34,483 bases of DNA from Gammaproteobacteria bacterium. GTDB lineage: Bacteria > Pseudomonadota > Gammaproteobacteria > Pseudomonadales > Litorivicinaceae. The position numbers and the translations under genes were made by a program. Shown here in pieces: positions 19,012 through 26,979 of this stretch. The stretch spans positions 1 to 34,483 of the forward strand of contig JAHEDY010000020.1 of the NCBI GenBank assembly GCA_024640985.1. The letters are read 5' to 3'. The first letter of the stretch is position 1; every line of letters starts with the position of its first letter. A model generated the notes under the pieces. The model did no database searches. It saw nothing but the letters and a program-made list of their open reading frames with translations, and had not been told where the DNA came from.

Positions 19012-19033
19012 TCTCACCCAAGAATGGGTGAGA
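19012..19033. terminator. Hairpin between the small ORF and metH, possible bidirectional terminator
   Basis: TCTCACCCA (19012-19020), loop AGAA, TGGGTGAGA (19025-19033) form a perfect nine-base stem. It overlaps the last codons and the stop of metH. Downstream on the minus strand the sequence becomes T-rich (TTATTTCTTTC) after about five bases; on the plus strand there is no T-run. It may terminate or stabilise metH transcripts, and block convergent read-through. Confidence 0.5.
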
Positions 19034-22000
19034 GCCAACGTGCATTTTCATCCACAGCTTCATCGCGAAGTGCAGCGTACGTCTTCAATTGATCCTGTCC
19101 GATTTGTCCCAGCGTGAAGTAACGCGCGTCTGGATGCGCAAAATAAAATCCACTCACTGAGGCGGTCGGCCACATCGCCAAGCTCTCAGTCAACGAGATT
19201 CCTGTGGCAGTTTCAACATCCAGCAGTGACCACAGTGAGCGCTTCTCGCGATGATCTGGGCAGGCTGGATAGCCAGGTGCCGGACGGATGCCACGGTACT
19301 TTTCTCGAATTAATTCGTCATTCGATAAGGTTTCGTCACAGGCGTAGCCCCAGAACTCTGTTCGGATTCTGCGGTGCAGATGTTCTGCAAAGCTTTCAGC
19401 AAAACGGTCAGCCAAGGCCTTCAGTAGAATGGCCTGGTAGTCATCGTGTGCGTCTTCAAAGGCTTTGACATGTGCGTCGATGCCGTGACCGGTGGTGACT
19501 GCGAATGTACCGATGAAGTCTAATTGTCCGGATTCTTTCGGAGCGATGAAATCACTGAGGCACAGTTGTGGCTTGCCATCAGGCATCGGGCGTTGTTGTC
19601 TCAGCCAGTGTGTTCTCAAAAGCTCACGCTCGTGGTCTTCGGGGTCTAAAATGACAATGCTATTGCCTTCGGAATAGGCTGGAAAACAGCCTGCGACCGC
19701 GTCTGCTCGCAACCACTTTTCATCGATGATTCGATCGAGCATCCCTTGGGCATCGTCAAACAGCTGACGTGCCTCTGGTCCTTTTCTCGGATCATTCAAG
19801 ATATCCGGGAATCGACCACTGAACTCCCAAGCATTGAAAAACGGCATCCAGTCGATGGTGTCTACAAGCGCATCCAAGGGATAATCATTCAACACAATCC
19901 GCCCGATGGAATTGGGTGTGACGATGGTGGAATGATCAAAGGTGAGATTGGCTGCACGTGCATTGGCATCAACAATGGATAAGAGCTTTTTTGGTGCTTT
20001 ACCAGCATGTGCTTTGCGCTTGGTCTCGTGATCATCACGAATGGATTGATGGTAAGCATCGCGTTCATCACTTAATAGCTTCGAGGCAACACCGACAGCA
20101 CGGGACGCATCTTTGACATAGAGCACCGGACCTGAATACGCCGGATCGATCTTCACGGATGTGTGAGCAGGCGAGGTGGTTGCTCCACCAATCAAAAGAG
20201 GACAGGTAAACCCTTGACGTTCCATTTCAGAGGCAACTGTTACCATTTCATCAAGCGATGGTGTGATCAGACCGGATAAACCAATGATGTCCGCGTTGTG
20301 CTCGCGTGCTGCATCTAAAATCGTCTGAGTCGGGACCATGACGCCTAAATCAATGACCTTGAAGTTGTTGCACTGAAGAACAACGCCGACAATGTTTTTG
20401 CCGATGTCATGCACATCACCTTTGACCGTCGCCATGATGATGACCCCATGTTCTTGGCTGGTATCACCGGCGGCTTCTTTCTCTTCTTCGATGAACGGAA
20501 TCAAGTGCGCCACCGCTTTTTTCATGACTCGCGCAGACTTCACGACCTGAGGTAGAAACATCTTTCCGGCTCCGAAGAGGTCGCCGACGGTATTCATCCC
20601 GTCCATCAAGGGCCCTTCGATGACCGATAAGGGCCGAGGTGCTTTTAATCGCGCTTCTTCGGTATCTCCGACAACATGCGTATCGATCCCTTTGATCAAG
20701 GCGTAAGCCAGTCGCTCTTCACAGGACCCATTGCGCCACTCGGCAACGGTTGTATCCTCGTCTTCTCGATCAACATTGTACGTCGGTGCAGCATCGACCA
20801 AGCGTTCAGTAGAATCATCACGACGATTTAAAATCACGTCCTCAACCAATTCCCTCAGTTTGGAATCGATGTCTTCATAGATCGCTAACTGTCCAGCATT
20901 GACGATTCCCATCGAAAGTCCTTGGCGGATAGCGTGGAATAAGAAGACGGAGTGCATCGCTTCACGCACCGCATTGTTGCCCCGGAATGAGAATGAGACG
21001 TTCGAGATGCCACCTGAGATGGAACTGTGTGGACAATGCTCGGTAATGTCGCGACAGGCCTCAATGAAATCGAGCGCGTAGTTATTGTGTTCTTCGATTC
21101 CTGTGGCAACGGCAAAGACGTTGGGATCAAAGATAATATCCTCCGGAGGAAATCCAATGGTCTCTGTCAGAATCTTGTAAGAGCGTTGGCAGATTTCGAG
21201 TTTTCGAGCTTGAGTATCCGCCTGACCGGTTTCATCAAAAGCCATCACCACAACAGCAAATCCGTATTGCCGAATTTTTCGTGCTTGTTCGACGAAAATG
21301 GCTTCGCCTTCTTTCAAAGAAATTGAATTGATGATGCCTTTGCCCTGAACGCATTGCATTCCAGCTTCTAAGATGTCCCATTTCGATGAATCGATCATCA
21401 CAGGCACTCGGGAAATGTCAGGTTCAGATGCGATCAGGTTCAAGAAAGTCACCATGGCCGATTGCGAGTCGAGCATGCCTTCATCCATATTGATATCGAT
21501 GATCTGGGCTCCGTTTTCCACCTGTTGTCTGGCAACAGCTAAGGCTTCATCGAACTCGCCGTTCAGAATTAAGCGTTTGAACATCGCAGATCCTGTGACG
21601 TTGGTTCGTTCTCCAACATTCACAAAGCCGGTCGTTTCATCGGCAATAAAGGGTTCAAGGCCAGACAATCGCATCAGAGGTTTCATCGCTGGAATCTCTC
21701 GTGGCTTCTCAGATGCGACCTGATTGGCGATGAGGCGGATGTGTTCGGGAGTGGTTCCACAACAGCCGCCGATGATATTGACCAGCCCGGCTCTCGCATA
21801 TTCGGCGACGATATCTGCCATTTCAGCAGCGTCTAAGTCGTATTCGCCGAACTGGTTTGGAAGGCCAGCATTGGGGTGTGCGGAAACAAAGGTATCAGCG
21901 ACGCGTGACAGATCCGCCAAAAATGGACGCAGCTCGTGTGGTCCAAGTGCGCAATTGAGACCAATTGTGAGGGGTTTGGCATGACGAACAGAGAACCAGA

Positions 22001-22682
22001 AGGCTTCGGTTGTCTGCCCCGACAAGGTCCGGCCTGAGGCATCCGTGATGGTCCCGGAGATCATGATACGGATCTGGATGCCGGTTTCTCGGGCGACCTC
22101 GTCAATTGCAAACAGCGCGGCTTTGGCATTTAAAGTGTCGAAAATGGTTTCTACCAGGATCAGATCAGCGCCGCCTTCCAACAGCGCGCGGGTGGCCTCT
22201 GTATAGGTTTTGACGAGTTGGCTGAAGGTAATATTTCTTGCCCCGGGGTCATTTACATCGGGGCTGATCGAGCAGGTTCTATTGGTTGGGCCGAGAACAC
22301 CGGCCACCAGCACAGGTCGATCGTAGGAATCGGCGACTGTTCGTGCGAGCTTTGCGGCCTCACGATTCAGTTCGCTGACCAAATCTTCCATGGCGTAATC
22401 AGCCATCGACGGATGATTCGAATTAAAGGTGTTAGTTTCAAGGATGCTCGCACCGGCATCGGCATACGCTTTGTGGATCGATGCGATCAGGTCTGGCTGT
22501 GTGATGGTCAGCAGATCATTATTTCCTTTGAGATCTTGGGGAAAATCCTTGAATCGACCACCACGATAGTCGCTTTCACCAAGACCCGCGCCTTGGATCA
22601 TGGTTCCCATGCCGCCATCTAAAATGACGATGGATTCTGTTAGTGTGGACTCAAGCCACTCGATGCGATCGTCACGTGTCAT
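19014..22682 (-). CDS. metH: Cobalamin-dependent methionine synthase
   Basis: Transfers methyl from 5-methyltetrahydrofolate through cobalamin to homocysteine. At 1222 residues it is full length (E. coli 1227) with all four modules: the homocysteine/zinc barrel ([30 protein letters not shown] with zinc Cys), the pterin-binding barrel ([40 protein letters not shown]), the cap and B12 domain ([20 protein letters not shown] with the lower-ligand His, [16 protein letters not shown]) and the AdoMet reactivation domain ([15 protein letters not shown]). ATG overlaps the metF stop as ATGA, so it is coupled to metF. No cobalamin riboswitch is present; control is probably through the upstream ArsR-type gene. 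Confidence 0.98.
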
Positions 22683-23533
22683 GCGTTACCCCGAACTCCT
22701 AAAGCGTGACAGACAGCAAAGCTTAAGTCCGCACGATTTAATGTATAAAAATGGAAGTCGTCGACACCCTCGCGACCGAGATTTTCAGCCTGCGATACCG
22801 CAGCATGAGCTGCAATCAGTTGGCGTGTGCTTGGGTCCTCATCGAGTCCTTCAAACAACGTTTTCAACGTCGCTGGAATCGATGCGCCACAGGCGTCTGC
22901 GAACCGGACTAAGGTGTTGAAGTTGGTCACCGGTAGAATCCCTGGAATTAATTCAACATTGATGTTTGCTGCAGCCACACGGTCTCGAAACCGCAAGAAA
23001 ATTGCGTTATCAAAAAAGAATTGGGTGATGGCACGATGTCCGCCGGCATCGACTTTGCGCTTGAGATTATCCAGATCGGTGTCCGCCGAGATCGCTTGTG
23101 GATGCGTCTCGGGATAGGCTGCGACAAAGAGTTCAAATGGATGTTTTGCGAGCAGGCCTTCGACCAAATCCGAAGCGTAGGCATAGCCATTTGGGTGTGG
23201 TTGATAGTCGGCTTCAGCACCACCTTCAGGGTCGCCACGAAGCGCGACGATTTGTCGGACCCCCATCGACCAGTAGTCATCCGCGATTGCATCGATTTCA
23301 TCACGCGGCGCGCCAACACAGGTCAGATGTGGCACAGGCTTGAGTTCGGTTTTCGTCAAAATGCTCTGGATCACTTGATGGGTCCGCTCACGTGTCGAGC
23401 CATCAGCCCCATAAGTCACAGACACAAATTCAGGATTCAACGGGGCTAATCGTTCGACCGTTTTCCAAAGACTCGCCTCAGCTTCGGGAGTTTTGGGGGG
23501 GAAAAATTCAAACGATACGCGAGGCGCACTCAT
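22679..23533 (-). CDS. metF: 5,10-methylenetetrahydrofolate reductase
   Basis: FAD enzyme that makes 5-methyltetrahydrofolate for MetH. The start at ATG 23533 (284 residues) has AAGGA eight bases upstream; an in-frame TTG two codons earlier is less likely. Catalytic residues are visible: Glu9 in [11 protein letters not shown] and Asp101 in [11 protein letters not shown], equivalent to Glu28 and Asp120 of E. coli MetF. Other conserved blocks are [38 protein letters not shown] and [11 protein letters not shown]. It lies two bases after the ArsR-methyltransferase stop and overlaps metH by four bases, forming one regulator-metF-metH operon. Confidence 0.97.
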
Positions 23534-23535
23534 GT

Positions 23536-24465
23536 TCAATCCTTATTCTTTTCTGAAACCAATAAACTGATATCCAAGACATCGCCAGGGAGGACGTTGG
23601 TGGACGAAATCGTCAGTCCAGCTTCTAAAAGCCAGTGGTGGATATCGGAGATTCTGATACTGACCGACGGAGGCGTTTTTGCCTCGGCTGCCGCGGTAAA
23701 TGCCACCAAGAGCAATCGGCCATTGGGTTTCAGGACTCGGGTGGCTTCTTTGATTAATGCGTCGGGATTGGATGCGAAATACAACACTTGATCAATGGTG
23801 ACCGTATCAAAATGCCGTGCCGGAAATCGCATTTGATACATATCTTCTTGGCGAACCGTGAGATGAGGAAGATCTGCGTCGGCCAGCGCGTTTCTTGCGA
23901 CCATCACCATTTTTTTTGAGAGATCAATGCCGACACCGCTAGCCGCTAAAGGTCCAGCAATTTTGAGCATGCGACCTGTTCCGGTCGCGATATCTAATAA
24001 ATGTCCAACCGGCTTTCCAGATAGAGCCTCTTGAACGGCATCACTGAAGCGTTGTTCGTCACCATGGTATTCGTGCAAGCGCAACCAATCAGGCACTTCT
24101 GTTTCAACAAATTCTTCGGATAATTTTGCACGTGCATCACGCAGTTCATTGAGTCGTGCTTGATCTAATTCCATCAGATCATCATCGACCGGCAACTGCT
24201 CCAATAAATCGTGAACCAATTGCTGACAGGGCACATTCTGGGCGACTCGATAAAATACCCAGTGCTGCTCACGAAAGCTTTCGAGCACTCCTGCATCTTG
24301 TAATAGTTTTAAATGACGAGAAACACGCGGCTGTGATTGGCCGACAATCCGCATCAGTTCTGATACAGTCAACTCGCCTTGTGCGCATAAGCGCGTCAGC
24401 CGGAACCGAGTGGGTTCAGCTATCGCTTTTAATGCGTCGATATAGTCGTCATAGGATGTCCACAT
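23536..24465 (-). CDS. ArsR-family regulator fused to a SAM-binding methyltransferase domain, SahR-like
   Basis: A 309-residue two-domain protein. Residues 8-75 are an ArsR-type winged helix (KAIAEPTRFRLTRLCAQGEL, then VGQSQPRVSRHLKLLQDAGV). Residues about 130-300 are a class I methyltransferase fold with motif I LLDIATGTGRML (156-167), GIDLSKKMV, a DMYQMRFPARHFDTVTIDQVLYF block and VLKPNGRLLLVAF. ArsR proteins with this C-terminal domain next to metF/metH are known in Proteobacteria; SahR senses S-adenosylhomocysteine and represses methionine-cycle genes. Here it heads the metF-metH operon, which fits. The metal-binding Cys motif of metal-sensing ArsR proteins is absent. The minus-strand leader is probably very short or missing. 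Confidence 0.88.
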   Translation of the reverse strand: MWTSYDDYIDALKAIAEPTRFRLTRLCAQGELTVSELMRIVGQSQPRVSRHLKLLQDAGVLESFREQHWVFYRVAQNVPCQQLVHDLLEQLPVDDDLMELDQARLNELRDARAKLSEEFVETEVPDWLRLHEYHGDEQRFSDAVQEALSGKPVGHLLDIATGTGRMLKIAGPLAASGVGIDLSKKMVMVARNALADADLPHLTVRQEDMYQMRFPARHFDTVTIDQVLYFASNPDALIKEATRVLKPNGRLLLVAFTAAAEAKTPPSVSIRISDIHHWLLEAGLTISSTNVLPGDVLDISLLVSEKNKD

Positions 24466-24471
24466 GACGGA

Positions 24472-24477
24472 TATAAT
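24472..24477 (+). promoter_or_regulatory. Perfect -10 hexamer facing the HIBYL-CoA hydrolase-like gene
   Basis: TATAAT on the plus strand, overlapping the minus-strand -10. No good -35 is seen 16-18 bases upstream. Transcription from here would start near 24484, inside the proposed operator, and leave a leader of about 29 bases. Confidence 0.35.
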
Positions 24478-24502
24478 AATATAAAGATATCCTTATGTTC
24501 AA
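24473..24502 (-). promoter_or_regulatory. Candidate promoter of the regulator-metF-metH operon, possibly leaderless
   Basis: On the minus strand, TTGAAC (24502-24497) and TATTAT (24478-24473) are 18 bases apart. Only seven bases separate the -10 from the ATG at 24465, so transcription would begin at or next to the start codon, and no ribosome binding site is visible. The palindrome 24479-24498 almost fills the spacer. Confidence 0.5.
24479..24498. promoter_or_regulatory. Candidate SahR-type operator
   Basis: The 20 bases read ATATAAAGATATCCTTATGT; eight of ten base pairs are symmetric, with the central AAGATATCCTT core nearly palindromic. It is in the only intergenic gap (24466-24512) between the ArsR-type regulator and the divergent operon, and lies between the candidate -35 and -10 of the regulator operon. 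From memory, AT-rich palindromes of similar form are proposed for ArsR/SahR proteins of the methionine cycle; this needs checking against a motif collection. Confidence 0.55.
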
Positions 24503-24512
24503 TGGAGATTTG

Positions 24513-25643
24513 ATGTTAGAGCCTACCGTTCATTTTCACACCATTCCGCTGAAACAATCCGAAGGCCTTTTAGGTGTCGCGGTCATGGACCGCCCAAAGG
24601 CACTGAATGCCTTGGATCACACCATGATTCGAGAACTATTAACGATCGTTGAGACCGTTGAGTCGGATACATCGATCCGGGGATTGTGGATCGAATCCTC
24701 TGCTGAAAAAGCGTTTTGCGCCGGTGGTGATGTGCGTGATGTGACCAACAATGGACAAGCTGGCGGATTAACGGACCTGAGTAATTCCTCAGACTATTTG
24801 GCTGATGAATATCTGTTGGATGTTGGGTTGCGGTACTGCTCGAAACCGGTATTTGCCTGGGGTGATGGTTACATCATGGGTGGCGGAATGGGCGTGTTCC
24901 AAGGCGCTGATGTTCGTTTCGTCACCGAGTATTCAAGTCTTGCGATGCCAGAAGTCCGCATTGGTTTTGTTCCAGACTGTGGTGGCAGTTGGTTTTTGAA
25001 CCATGTCCCAAAGGGCCTCGGAATCTGTTTGGCGATGAGTGGCGCAACGGTCGGGGCAGCCGATGGTTGTTGGTTGAATCTGGCTGATTGGTTGTTACCA
25101 AGAGCGGAGAAATCGGCACTCTTTGATGCTGCGCTCGCGCTCAATTATGCGTCAAAATCTCAGGCATTAGCCGAACTCGGTTCGATCCTTAAAGAAGCAA
25201 CGACTGAATCTCCAAGGCAAGGTCCTTGGGAAGAAAATGGTGCGCGATTGGCCAATAGTATTCGTCACCAAACGCCACTGAACGTTTGGCACGCCATGCA
25301 GGCCTGGCATCATGATGTCCCGGAGTTATTTATCGGGCTTGAGCAAGCAAGCCCAGGCGCTGCTATGGTTGCTGGCTATCAGCAACAGCGCATGAAATAT
25401 CAAAGTCTCATTCATGCGGTACTTCAAGAACACGATATCGGAATGCAGATGTTGTCGGATGGTGAGTGGTGTGAAGGTGTTCGCGCTCTCCTGATCGACA
25501 AGGATAAAAATCCTCAGTGGCGATTTGCGACCATCGAAGAGGTCACGCCTGACTGGATACAGGCGATGTTAGCCCCCATGGAGTGGACAACCACACATCC
25601 CTTGGCAGCCAAGTTAGCTGCCAAAGGACTATTGCACGATTAA
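24513..25643 (+). CDS. Crotonase-fold 3-hydroxyisobutyryl-CoA hydrolase-like protein
   Basis: A 376-residue enoyl-CoA hydratase/isomerase superfamily member. ATG 24513 has GGAG five bases upstream; ATG 24495 has no such site and lies in the proposed operator. Motifs: AFCAGGDVRDV (68-77), GYIMGGGMGVFQGADVRFVTE with the oxyanion-hole glycines, and LAMPEVRIGFVPDCGGSWFL with Glu147 and Asp155. That Glu/Asp pair spaced by eight residues, and a length well above the 260 of plain hydratases, point to HIBYL-CoA hydrolase (valine catabolism; human Glu169/Asp177). The next gene, a 3-hydroxyisobutyrate dehydrogenase homologue, would use its product. A different short-chain acyl-CoA substrate cannot be excluded. 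Confidence 0.82.
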   Translation: MLEPTVHFHTIPLKQSEGLLGVAVMDRPKALNALDHTMIRELLTIVETVESDTSIRGLWIESSAEKAFCAGGDVRDVTNNGQAGGLTDLSNSSDYLADEYLLDVGLRYCSKPVFAWGDGYIMGGGMGVFQGADVRFVTEYSSLAMPEVRIGFVPDCGGSWFLNHVPKGLGICLAMSGATVGAADGCWLNLADWLLPRAEKSALFDAALALNYASKSQALAELGSILKEATTESPRQGPWEENGARLANSIRHQTPLNVWHAMQAWHHDVPELFIGLEQASPGAAMVAGYQQQRMKYQSLIHAVLQEHDIGMQMLSDGEWCEGVRALLIDKDKNPQWRFATIEEVTPDWIQAMLAPMEWTTTHPLAAKLAAKGLLHD

Positions 25644-25664: not shown

Positions 25665-26549
25665 ATGAAAGTGTCATTTTTAGGATTAGGCGTGATGGGA
25701 TATCCCATGGCTGGTCATTTGGCGAAAGCGGGACATGAGGTCACGGTTTATAATAGAACGTTTCAGAAAGCACAGCAGTGGGCTCAGGAGTTTGGTGGTC
25801 AACCCGCCAAAACCCCGAAAGAAGCTGCTGTTGGCCAAGATATCGTGTTCGCCTGTGTGGGTAACGACGATGATTTAAGAAGTATCACCTTGGGAGATGA
25901 CGGGGCCTTTGCTGGAATGAGTGAAGGCGCGCTCTTCGTGGATCACACCACAGCCAGCGCTGAGGTGGCTCGCGAACTCGGTGCGATGGCAAAATCGCTC
26001 AATGTTGGATTTATGGATGCGCCCGTGTCGGGTGGCCAGCAGGGTGCAGAGAATGGTGCCCTAACGGTGATGGTTGGCGGTAGCCAAGCGCATTTTGATC
26101 GAGCCGCTCCCGTGATTGACGCCTTTGCCCGCGCATGTACCCTGATGGGAGACGTTGGTGCCGGTCAATTAACCAAGATGGTCAATCAAATCTGTATTGC
26201 CGGTCTCGTTGAGGCCTTATCTGAAGGGTTATCCTTTGCCCGGGCAGCAGGCCTTGACGCCCACAAAGTCGTGGATGTGATCAGTAAAGGTGCTGCACAA
26301 TCTTGGCAAATGGAAAATCGCTACAAAACGATGCTCGCTGATGAGTTTGAGCATGGCTTTGCCGTCGATTGGATGCGTAAAGATTTGTCCATCTGTTTGG
26401 CTGAAGCGCGGAAGAATGGATCAGCGTTACCCATTACCGCGGCTGTTGACCAGTTGTATGGCGAAGTCCAAGCGATGGGCGGAAACCGTTGGGATACATC
26501 CAGCTTATTTGCGCGCCTTGAGGCGATGCGCCAGCACGGTGGCAAATAA
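25665..26549 (+). CDS. mmsB: 3-hydroxyisobutyrate dehydrogenase family protein
   Basis: A 294-residue beta-hydroxyacid dehydrogenase. The NAD(P) loop is SFLGLGVMGYPMAGHLAKAG (about 4-23); FMDAPVSGGQQGAENGALTVMVGG (about 117-139) is the substrate-binding block; and GAGQLTKMVNQ supplies catalytic Lys171. The C-terminal domain has EHGFAVDWMRKDLSICLAEA. Paired with the HIBYL-CoA hydrolase-like gene 21 bases upstream, oxidation of 3-hydroxyisobutyrate to methylmalonate semialdehyde in valine breakdown is the best guess. The family also includes tartronate semialdehyde reductase (GlxR), which would connect to glycolate metabolism, so the gene symbol is provisional. AAAGGA precedes the ATG. The last 11 bases overlap recX. 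Confidence 0.8.
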   Translation: MKVSFLGLGVMGYPMAGHLAKAGHEVTVYNRTFQKAQQWAQEFGGQPAKTPKEAAVGQDIVFACVGNDDDLRSITLGDDGAFAGMSEGALFVDHTTASAEVARELGAMAKSLNVGFMDAPVSGGQQGAENGALTVMVGGSQAHFDRAAPVIDAFARACTLMGDVGAGQLTKMVNQICIAGLVEALSEGLSFARAAGLDAHKVVDVISKGAAQSWQMENRYKTMLADEFEHGFAVDWMRKDLSICLAEARKNGSALPITAAVDQLYGEVQAMGGNRWDTSSLFARLEAMRQHGGK

Positions 26550-26979
26550 TCCGTTTGATAGCCTGATCAACCGTTTGGCCCGCAGAGAGCACTCGCGGGT
26601 CGAATTGGATCGTAAACTTCAGACCGTACACCCCGAACTCTCTCAAGAGGAGCGTGTACAACTACTCGATCGGTTGGTTGAGCTCAATTTGCAATCCGAC
26701 ACACGGTTCGCGGAGATGCTGATTCGGTCTCGATTGCAACGCGGTCAAGGTCGTCGCCGAATTGAACAAGAGCTTGGGCAACACGCGATTGATGTTGGCG
26801 AAGTCGCTGAGCATTTTGATGAAGCTGATGTCAGCGAAAGTGAGCGTTGCTATGCTGCGCTTGAGAAGTGGGTGCGGAGTAAAAAAGATCCAAACCGAGA
26901 GAAAGCGTTCCGATTTTTAGCCTCACGTGGCTTTAATTTTTCGGATGCAACAGAAGCAGTCAACGCGATTTTCCGCTAG
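26539..26979 (+). CDS. recX: Regulatory protein RecX
   Basis: Modulates RecA filaments. From GTG 26539 the product has 146 residues, a usual RecX length. Blocks such as SLINRLARREHSRVELDRKL, RLVELNLQSDTRFAEMLIRS, RLQRGQGRRRIEQELGQ and REKAFRFLASRGFNFSDATEAV follow the three helical repeats of the family. The open frame extends back into mmsB, but those residues are shadow sequence. GTG is the only good start near the domain, with a weak GAGG 14 bases upstream, and it overlaps the mmsB stop region by 11 bases, suggesting translational coupling. In many gammaproteobacteria recX directly follows recA; here it does not, although its tie to alaS is kept. Confidence 0.88.
   Translation: MANNPFDSLINRLARREHSRVELDRKLQTVHPELSQEERVQLLDRLVELNLQSDTRFAEMLIRSRLQRGQGRRRIEQELGQHAIDVGEVAEHFDEADVSESERCYAALEKWVRSKKDPNREKAFRFLASRGFNFSDATEAVNAIFR

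Follow-up and report, generated by a model that had tools for sequence, protein, structure and literature searches.

A near-palindrome in the 47-bp gap between the minus-strand gene sahR (ATG at 24465) and a plus-strand hydrolase gene (ATG at 24513) was supported by sequence comparison as a SahR-type operator inside the sahR-metF-metH promoter. The window, which is the whole stretch of 34,483 nucleotides that was analysed, comes from a Litoricola-clade gammaproteobacterium with a genome of 1.63 Mb that is 98.9% complete. As judged from the sequence comparisons, the operator site is real and conserved, and the system is a SahR regulon of the kind described for alphaproteobacteria, here in a gammaproteobacterial host. 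We hold it to be highly probable that the near-palindrome is the operator of the adjacently encoded, SAH-responsive SahR of the alphaproteobacterial form, with the mechanism and the leaderless start proposed below.

The features of the locus are collected in Table 1. The gene sahR runs directly into metF and then metH. The protein encoded by sahR matched PF01022 with 47.3 bits (cut-off 22) and PF08241 with 72.6 bits (cut-off 21.2), which is the domain plan of SahR, and its glycine-rich DIATGTGR motif was intact. On the other strand, the sequence-only reading had named a HIBYL-CoA hydrolase and a dehydrogenase. These names held at the family level, whereas the NCBIfam cut-offs were missed, just barely by the hydrolase and in every listed case by the dehydrogenase. 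The ATG at 24495 was rejected as the hydrolase start because it is out of frame in locus L019, where an inserted base, seen by eye, breaks the frame.

Table 1. Positions of the genes, promoter elements and operator in the window, and of the SAM-V riboswitches in genomes of the same genus
Feature	Position	Strand	Evidence or remark
metH, cobalamin-dependent methionine synthase	19014..22682	-	TIGR02082 and NF007024 above cut-off
metF	22679..23539	-	PF02219; TIGR00676 above cut-off; overlaps the sahR end; 23533 is a possible ATG
sahR, 309 aa, ArsR-type HTH and SAM-dependent methyltransferase-like domain	23536..24465	-	PF01022, PF08241
Stretch from -10 to ATG, 7 bases	24466..24472	-	Sequence variable, length near-constant; transcript predicted to start on or beside the A of the ATG
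TATAAT	24472..24477	+	Possible, poorly supported -10 of the divergent operon; perfect in 14/20 loci
-10 TATTAT of the sahR promoter	24473..24478	-	Bases 1, 2, 3 and 6 invariant in 20/20 loci
Putative SahR operator, 20-bp near-palindrome	24479..24498, core 24481-24496	.	Genus conservation, metK-ahcY copy, related sahR-metF sites
-35 TTGAAC of the sahR promoter	24497..24502	-	Bases 1, 2, 3 and 5 invariant in 20/20 loci
GGAG, likely Shine-Dalgarno of the hydrolase gene (ATG 24513)	24504..24507	+	
3-hydroxyisobutyryl-CoA hydrolase-like gene, ECH_2 family	24513..25643	+	PF16113; NF004127 264.9 bits against a cut-off of 274
3-hydroxyisobutyrate/tartronate-semialdehyde-type dehydrogenase	25665..26549	+	PF03446, PF14833; below every NCBIfam equivalog cut-off listed
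recX, start unsettled	26533..26979	+	PF02631
SAM-V riboswitch, G011	L117 1204-1273 = G011:C2:7103-7172		41.1 bits, above the cut-off of 41; core with one mismatch
SAM-V riboswitch, G017	G017:C65:99-170		38.9 bits, under the cut-off of 41; core with one mismatch
SAM-V riboswitch, G005	G005:C11:33706-33775		37.8 bits, under the cut-off of 41; core exact

The sequence-only reading had placed a SahR-like near-palindrome in the spacer of a TTGAAC-18-TATTAT promoter, seven bases ahead of an ATG that lacks a ribosome binding site, and all of this was present in the window at 24502-24473 on the minus strand. The spacer of 18 nt covers 24496-24479, and the two hexamers match the consensus at 9 of 12 bases. 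A promoter scan reported the sahR promoter twice, with spacers of 18 and 17 nt; shuffled sequences gave a mean of 0.9 (sd 1.0), so that the promoter score has no significance when taken by itself. Of the 10 pairs in the 20-mer at 24479-24498, 8 are symmetric, and a single base (24492) sets its core apart from the perfect palindrome ATAAAGATATCTTTAT.

Conservation was examined as a footprint over the 20 same-genus loci that contain the whole gap; L018, whose contig begins inside the gene, was left out, and genome G017 (78% complete) gave no sahR match. The palindrome was found to be conserved among these relatives, as the earlier reading had asked to be checked: 15 of the 16 core columns were invariant, compared with 0 of 17 fourfold-degenerate third positions of the adjacent gene. 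The core was ATAAAGATATCTTTAT in 16 of the 20 loci and the window's form, ATAAGGATATCTTTAT, in the other 4. The linking AT of the sahR promoter was also invariant in all 20. The distance from the -10 to the ATG was 7 nt in 19 loci and 6 nt in 1, with a variable sequence. The odd operator base at 24492 (AAGG for AAAG) recurred in 4/20 sahR sites and in 2/16 metK sites (L109 and L112), and in these sites the AAGG variant was always on the -35-side half and never on the other half.

A search of the 1.63-Mb genome with up to three mismatches returned seven core matches (reversed control: two), namely one exact, the window's own with one mismatch, and five with three mismatches. From base composition alone (51% GC, taken from a 326-kb sample), 0.0003 exact and 0.015 one-mismatch copies would be expected in the genome, and one of each was found. 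The exact copy, the only other match with fewer than three mismatches, is located before metK, which is followed by ahcY; both near-exact copies thus sit in promoters of SAM-cycle operons. Its location is among those for which the sequence-only reading had proposed a search for further copies (upstream of ahcY, metK, metE or metX). This operator is enclosed by a TTGACA-16-TACAAT promoter matching 11 of 12 consensus bases. The five three-mismatch sites (L072-L076) were rejected as regulon members; by eye they lie in reading frames and do not precede methionine genes, and their number is near the level of the reversed control. In the available text of PMC4239095 the core regulon of SahR comprises sahR, ahcY, metH, metF and metK, and these genes stand behind the two sites found here, sahR-metF-metH and metK-ahcY. 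MetJ gave no match in the host genome, and E. coli alone was positive among 14 control genomes.

Fifteen of 22 genus genomes carry the arrangement TTGACA-operator-TA(C/T)AAT before metK, at 16 sites in all, each with a transketolase gene on the other side. The genomes for which no metK site is listed (G006, G007, G008, G016, G017, G018 and G019) are 56-89% complete. In this search of 22 genomes the reversed control had matches in 3, and two-mismatch matches were assessed in the window's own genome only. A one-mismatch core in G014 (L107) had no gene start beside it. Coincidence could be considered for the palindrome in the window, given that the site is short and AT-rich and that the promoter score alone falls within the shuffle range. 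However, its rarity in the genome, its conservation in 20 loci, its placement in a promoter and the shuffled controls described below all argue against a chance AT-rich palindrome, which we rejected as having a negligible probability.

The sahR mRNA is most likely leaderless, starting at the AUG or no more than a base or two from it, as predicted from the promoter geometry. A search of the 4-18 nt upstream of the sahR ATG gave no Shine-Dalgarno tetramer, neither in the window nor across the 20 same-genus loci. The test is a crude one: applied to 287 mechanically called genes from 326 kb of the host genome, it left 171 without the tetramer, so the promoter geometry and not the missing ribosome site carries the argument. 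Of these 287 genes, 3, with sahR among them, have a hexamer resembling a -10 at 5-8 nt upstream of the start. The genus footprint, with invariant hexamer bases and a near-constant gap, identifies the promoter, and transcription would be expected to start at, or about one base before, the A of the ATG. The suggestion of a leaderless regulator mRNA in the sequence-only reading was thus supported by a geometry that is conserved in the genus. In the own genome the metK core lies 38 nt from the metK ATG, so the missing leader would be particular to sahR. We consider it unlikely that sahR has an ordinary leader, transcribed from a start further upstream that was not seen, with the hexamers mattering only as operator surroundings. 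The rarity of the leaderless-like spacing in the own genome would fit such a leader, as would the situation in S. meliloti and R. leguminosarum, where 16 nt separate the operator from the annotated start of sahR. In the genus loci, however, the key bases of the hexamers vary no more than the operator does, the distance to the ATG is nearly fixed in length while its sequence changes, and the ribosome site is missing throughout.

Leaderless mRNAs of autoregulated repressors are known from lambda cI and Tn1721 tetR. The likeness to sahR is an autoregulated repressor mRNA that starts at its own AUG, a start that is predicted in the present case, and the difference is that these repressors belong to other protein families than SahR. 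In one locus of another class (L155, genome G858), TTGACC is followed by an operator in the spacer and by an ATG about 6 nt after the -10, and by eye it looks leaderless. A spacer operator combined with a leaderless layout may therefore be a recurrent arrangement.

On the sequence evidence, the regulator is closest to the alphaproteobacterial sahR-metF proteins and not to the metK-linked SahR of its own order. Relatives at E ≤ 1e-30 were found in 55 of 299 genomes of the phylum outside the class, and the best 29 of these 55 loci were all examined. Among these best 29 of 55, 26 regulator genes had the 20-bp operator close to their start, at no more than three mismatches, and the same 26 had metF as a neighbour; the operator was missing upstream of L149, L160 and L162. 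In the same 29 stretches the reversed pattern matched in none, and 200 symmetric shuffles matched in a mean of 0.12 loci (highest 15). The pair flanking the operator centre was G-C in 11, C-G in 6 and unmatched in 9 of the 26 sites, and the symmetric exchange of G-C and C-G fits a dimer site, the 26 sequences not being independent. The other class is taken to be the Alphaproteobacteria, since a relative was found on 11 plasmid or chromid records, every one of them under an alphaproteobacterial genus name (taxonomy lines read for four). These 4 named records all carried the operator with 1-3 mismatches, and in the annotated records of Sinorhizobium meliloti and Rhizobium leguminosarum metF was directly behind. 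The palindromic 20-bp operator of the alphaproteobacterial type was thus found both among the best 29 of 55 loci and in the named records, and the motif was identified from these sites. In one other-class genome a second operator site was seen by eye before a metH-like gene. An undescribed gammaproteobacterial group of operator and regulator was rejected, as the other-class loci show the same operator.

The likenesses to alphaproteobacterial SahR (accessible text of PMC4239095 and, for Ensifer aridi, of PMC8877191) comprise an ArsR HTH fused to a methyltransferase domain (36-48% identity among the best 29 of 55), the order sahR-metF(-metH), a 20-bp operator centred on GATATC or CATATG, and metK and ahcY in the regulon. 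Orthology with SahR was found, and the link to the described SahR runs via gene order, operator and named species. The differences are that the host here is a gammaproteobacterium and that the operator, which in S. meliloti and R. leguminosarum lies 16 nt from the annotated start, is here placed between -35 and -10 of a probably leaderless gene. In a tree of 63 of the 85 proteins (near-duplicates and short rows left out), the clade of the window joined the other-class proteins with a support of 93/86, which is under the 95/80 mark, and the metK-linked SahR and the SamR-like group formed separate clades, each with 100/100. The long rows L066, L139, L032, L143 and L138 were of unsure place.

The metK-linked SahR of the order has the same domain plan and pathway and adjoins metK in 6/6 loci. 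It differs by an identity of only 23-30%, a recognition helix of the type Q(S/P)xxSHHLK and an ATATCA..TGATAT palindrome in 3/6 loci (L030-L032), which fits ATC-N10-GAT; the different helix, palindrome and clade led us to reject this sub-type as the identity of the regulator. Pseudomonas PA0547 presumably adjoins metK. This protein is called SahR in the accessible part of PMC7950407. In PMC4239095, as far as its text was available, ATC-N10-GAT is the consensus for gammaproteobacterial SahR and SamR, and both operator sub-types are named SahR. The site in the window is GATATC-centred and does not match this gamma/delta consensus.

SamR of Xanthomonadales (available text of PMC4239095) has the same domain plan, and the SamR-like loci used for comparison, so labelled from their motif and metH neighbourhood, adjoin metH in 4/5. 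They differ by an identity of about 29-32%, another recognition helix and the motif ATC-N10-GAT in 4/5 loci. It would be very unlikely that the regulator is SamR-like, or a new regulator, answering SAM and not SAH. SamR is a distant homologue of SahR with an unknown effector, according to the same available text, and the protein of the window is 31-34% identical to SamR-like proteins. However, its recognition helix is SQPRVSRHLKLL and not of the AQ(P/S)RVSTHLA type, its site is unlike the upstream motif of those loci, and it falls in a separate clade. Its regulon also includes ahcY, whereas the SamR regulons in the accessible text of PMC4239095 hold metK as their sole SAM-cycle gene. SamR was rejected as the identity of the regulator, with neither its clade nor ATC-N10-GAT found for the window.

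For an SAH-responsive SahR, the following mechanism is proposed. With a dimer of SahR on 24479-24498, the spacer that separates -35 from -10 would be masked and RNA polymerase kept from the sahR-metF-metH promoter, and the second SahR site would act likewise at metK-ahcY. Accumulating SAH would bind the methyltransferase-like domain and release SahR, after which SAH would be hydrolysed by AhcY and homocysteine remethylated by MetF and MetH. We infer binding, repression and SAH as effector in this host, and the effector and the polarity are carried over from described relatives. In the available text of PMC8877191, sahR expression was highest in a sahR deletion of Ensifer aridi, and SAH is cited as the effector in Desulfovibrio.

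The sequence-only reading had extended SahR control to the divergent operon, so that one site would act in both directions and the hydrolase, the dehydrogenase and recX would also be SAH-responsive, via a start that overlaps the operator or lies just upstream. Such co-control is possible, and we regard it as less likely than not. The divergent pair of sahR and hydrolase was kept in 20/20 genus loci with a gap of 46-48 bp, despite hydrolase identity falling to 55%. The constant gap, however, is explained by the sahR promoter together with the ribosome site of the hydrolase gene. The plus-strand TATAAT of the earlier reading was present, but it was perfect only in 14/20 loci, read CAGCAT in L015, and had a best -35 of at most 3/6 in all 20, so it stands without a good partner and the control is unproven. 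An alternative TATAAA within the operator had a -35 partner of 3-4/6 in 20/20 loci. No plus-strand promoter of at least 9/12 was found within 200 nt upstream of the hydrolase gene in the window and 12 other loci, which would leave room for a hydrolase promoter overlapping the operator. In 5/20 loci (L007-L010 and L021) a promoter match of 9-10/12 was located inside sahR, 28-29 nt before the operator, and in 2/20 (L011 and L012) a plus-side match of at least 9/12 was within it; bound SahR would obstruct the promoters in these loci. Against two-way control, the divergent neighbour differs elsewhere, being transketolase at the metK sites and another protein at the metH site of G022, and the word valine is absent from the main text of PMC4239095 as available.

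Beyond the genus, the exact core was found in 20 of 390 genomes of the order: 15/16 of the same genus, 1/2 of the sister genus and 4/372 others (reversed control 2/390). G376 carried it before metK-ahcY, with proteins 66% and 76% identical to those of the window's genome, and G070 before an ArsR-methyltransferase gene and metF. In G221 and G077 it showed no link. The sahR promoter of G070 (L119) has overlapping half-site copies (ATATAAAGATATCTTTATATAAAGATAT) that end close to the start codon. In the sister-genus genome G022 (L123 491-506, G022:C296) the operator lies before metH, which in that genome is set apart from sahR and follows an opposite-strand gene. No operator was present upstream of the sister-genus sahR loci L024-L026 or of L066; L068 and L069 are 3' fragments and were not counted.

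The core touches or overlaps the regulator's start codon in 14 relatives of Halieaceae type, which are 55-61% identical; it was exact in 6, had one mismatch in 7 and was cut by the contig end in 1. None of metF, metH, metK, ahcY and the hydrolase gene was present in these 14 loci of 3.7-6.9 kb each. In the tree, the Halieaceae-type SahR (L053-L063) was nested in the Litoricola set with a support of 97/88, which suggests that sahR was transferred together with its operator. Seven further regulators came from gammaproteobacteria of other orders: L133, L135 and L137 have the core with no more than one mismatch, L136, L138 and L139 lack it upstream, and L134 was masked.

Among the matches listed from the open-licence literature, as far as its text was available, none mentioned the host lineage, the spacer-embedded operator or the leaderless geometry. 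SahR with Litoricola or Halieaceae and SahR with leaderless likewise gave nothing relevant among the matches listed there, and AAAGATATCTTT had no text match in this literature. The locus adds a marine gammaproteobacterial lineage to the map of SahR, and it indicates that SahR sub-types with different operators are in use within a single order of gammaproteobacteria. With the relatives HIMB30 and LSUCC0096, it provides a small system in which to study a repressor that is probably in control of its own leaderless mRNA.

In 3 of the 22 genus genomes, the window's not among them, a SAM-V riboswitch (RF01826) begins 5 nt after a SahR-type core, and for these loci dual control by SAH and SAM is possible. 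The widest reading is that the 47-bp divergon uses a single site as a two-way SAH switch for methionine recycling, branched-chain acyl-CoA breakdown and recX, with a leaderless autorepressor, and that the stack of operator and SAM-V in relatives is gated by the SAM/SAH ratio; taken as a whole, we consider it rather doubtful. If the gating were true, one transcript would be subject to SAH sensing at the DNA and to SAM sensing in the RNA, and SahR plus SAM-V in the three relatives would be a natural sensor of the SAM/SAH ratio. A similar sequence in G004 had no Rfam match. The SAM-V loci precede a small ORF that matched nothing in Pfam, genes for an ABC-2 transporter and a sox-like cluster, the molybdopterin oxidoreductase in G005 being assigned by Pfam and the remaining neighbours by eye.
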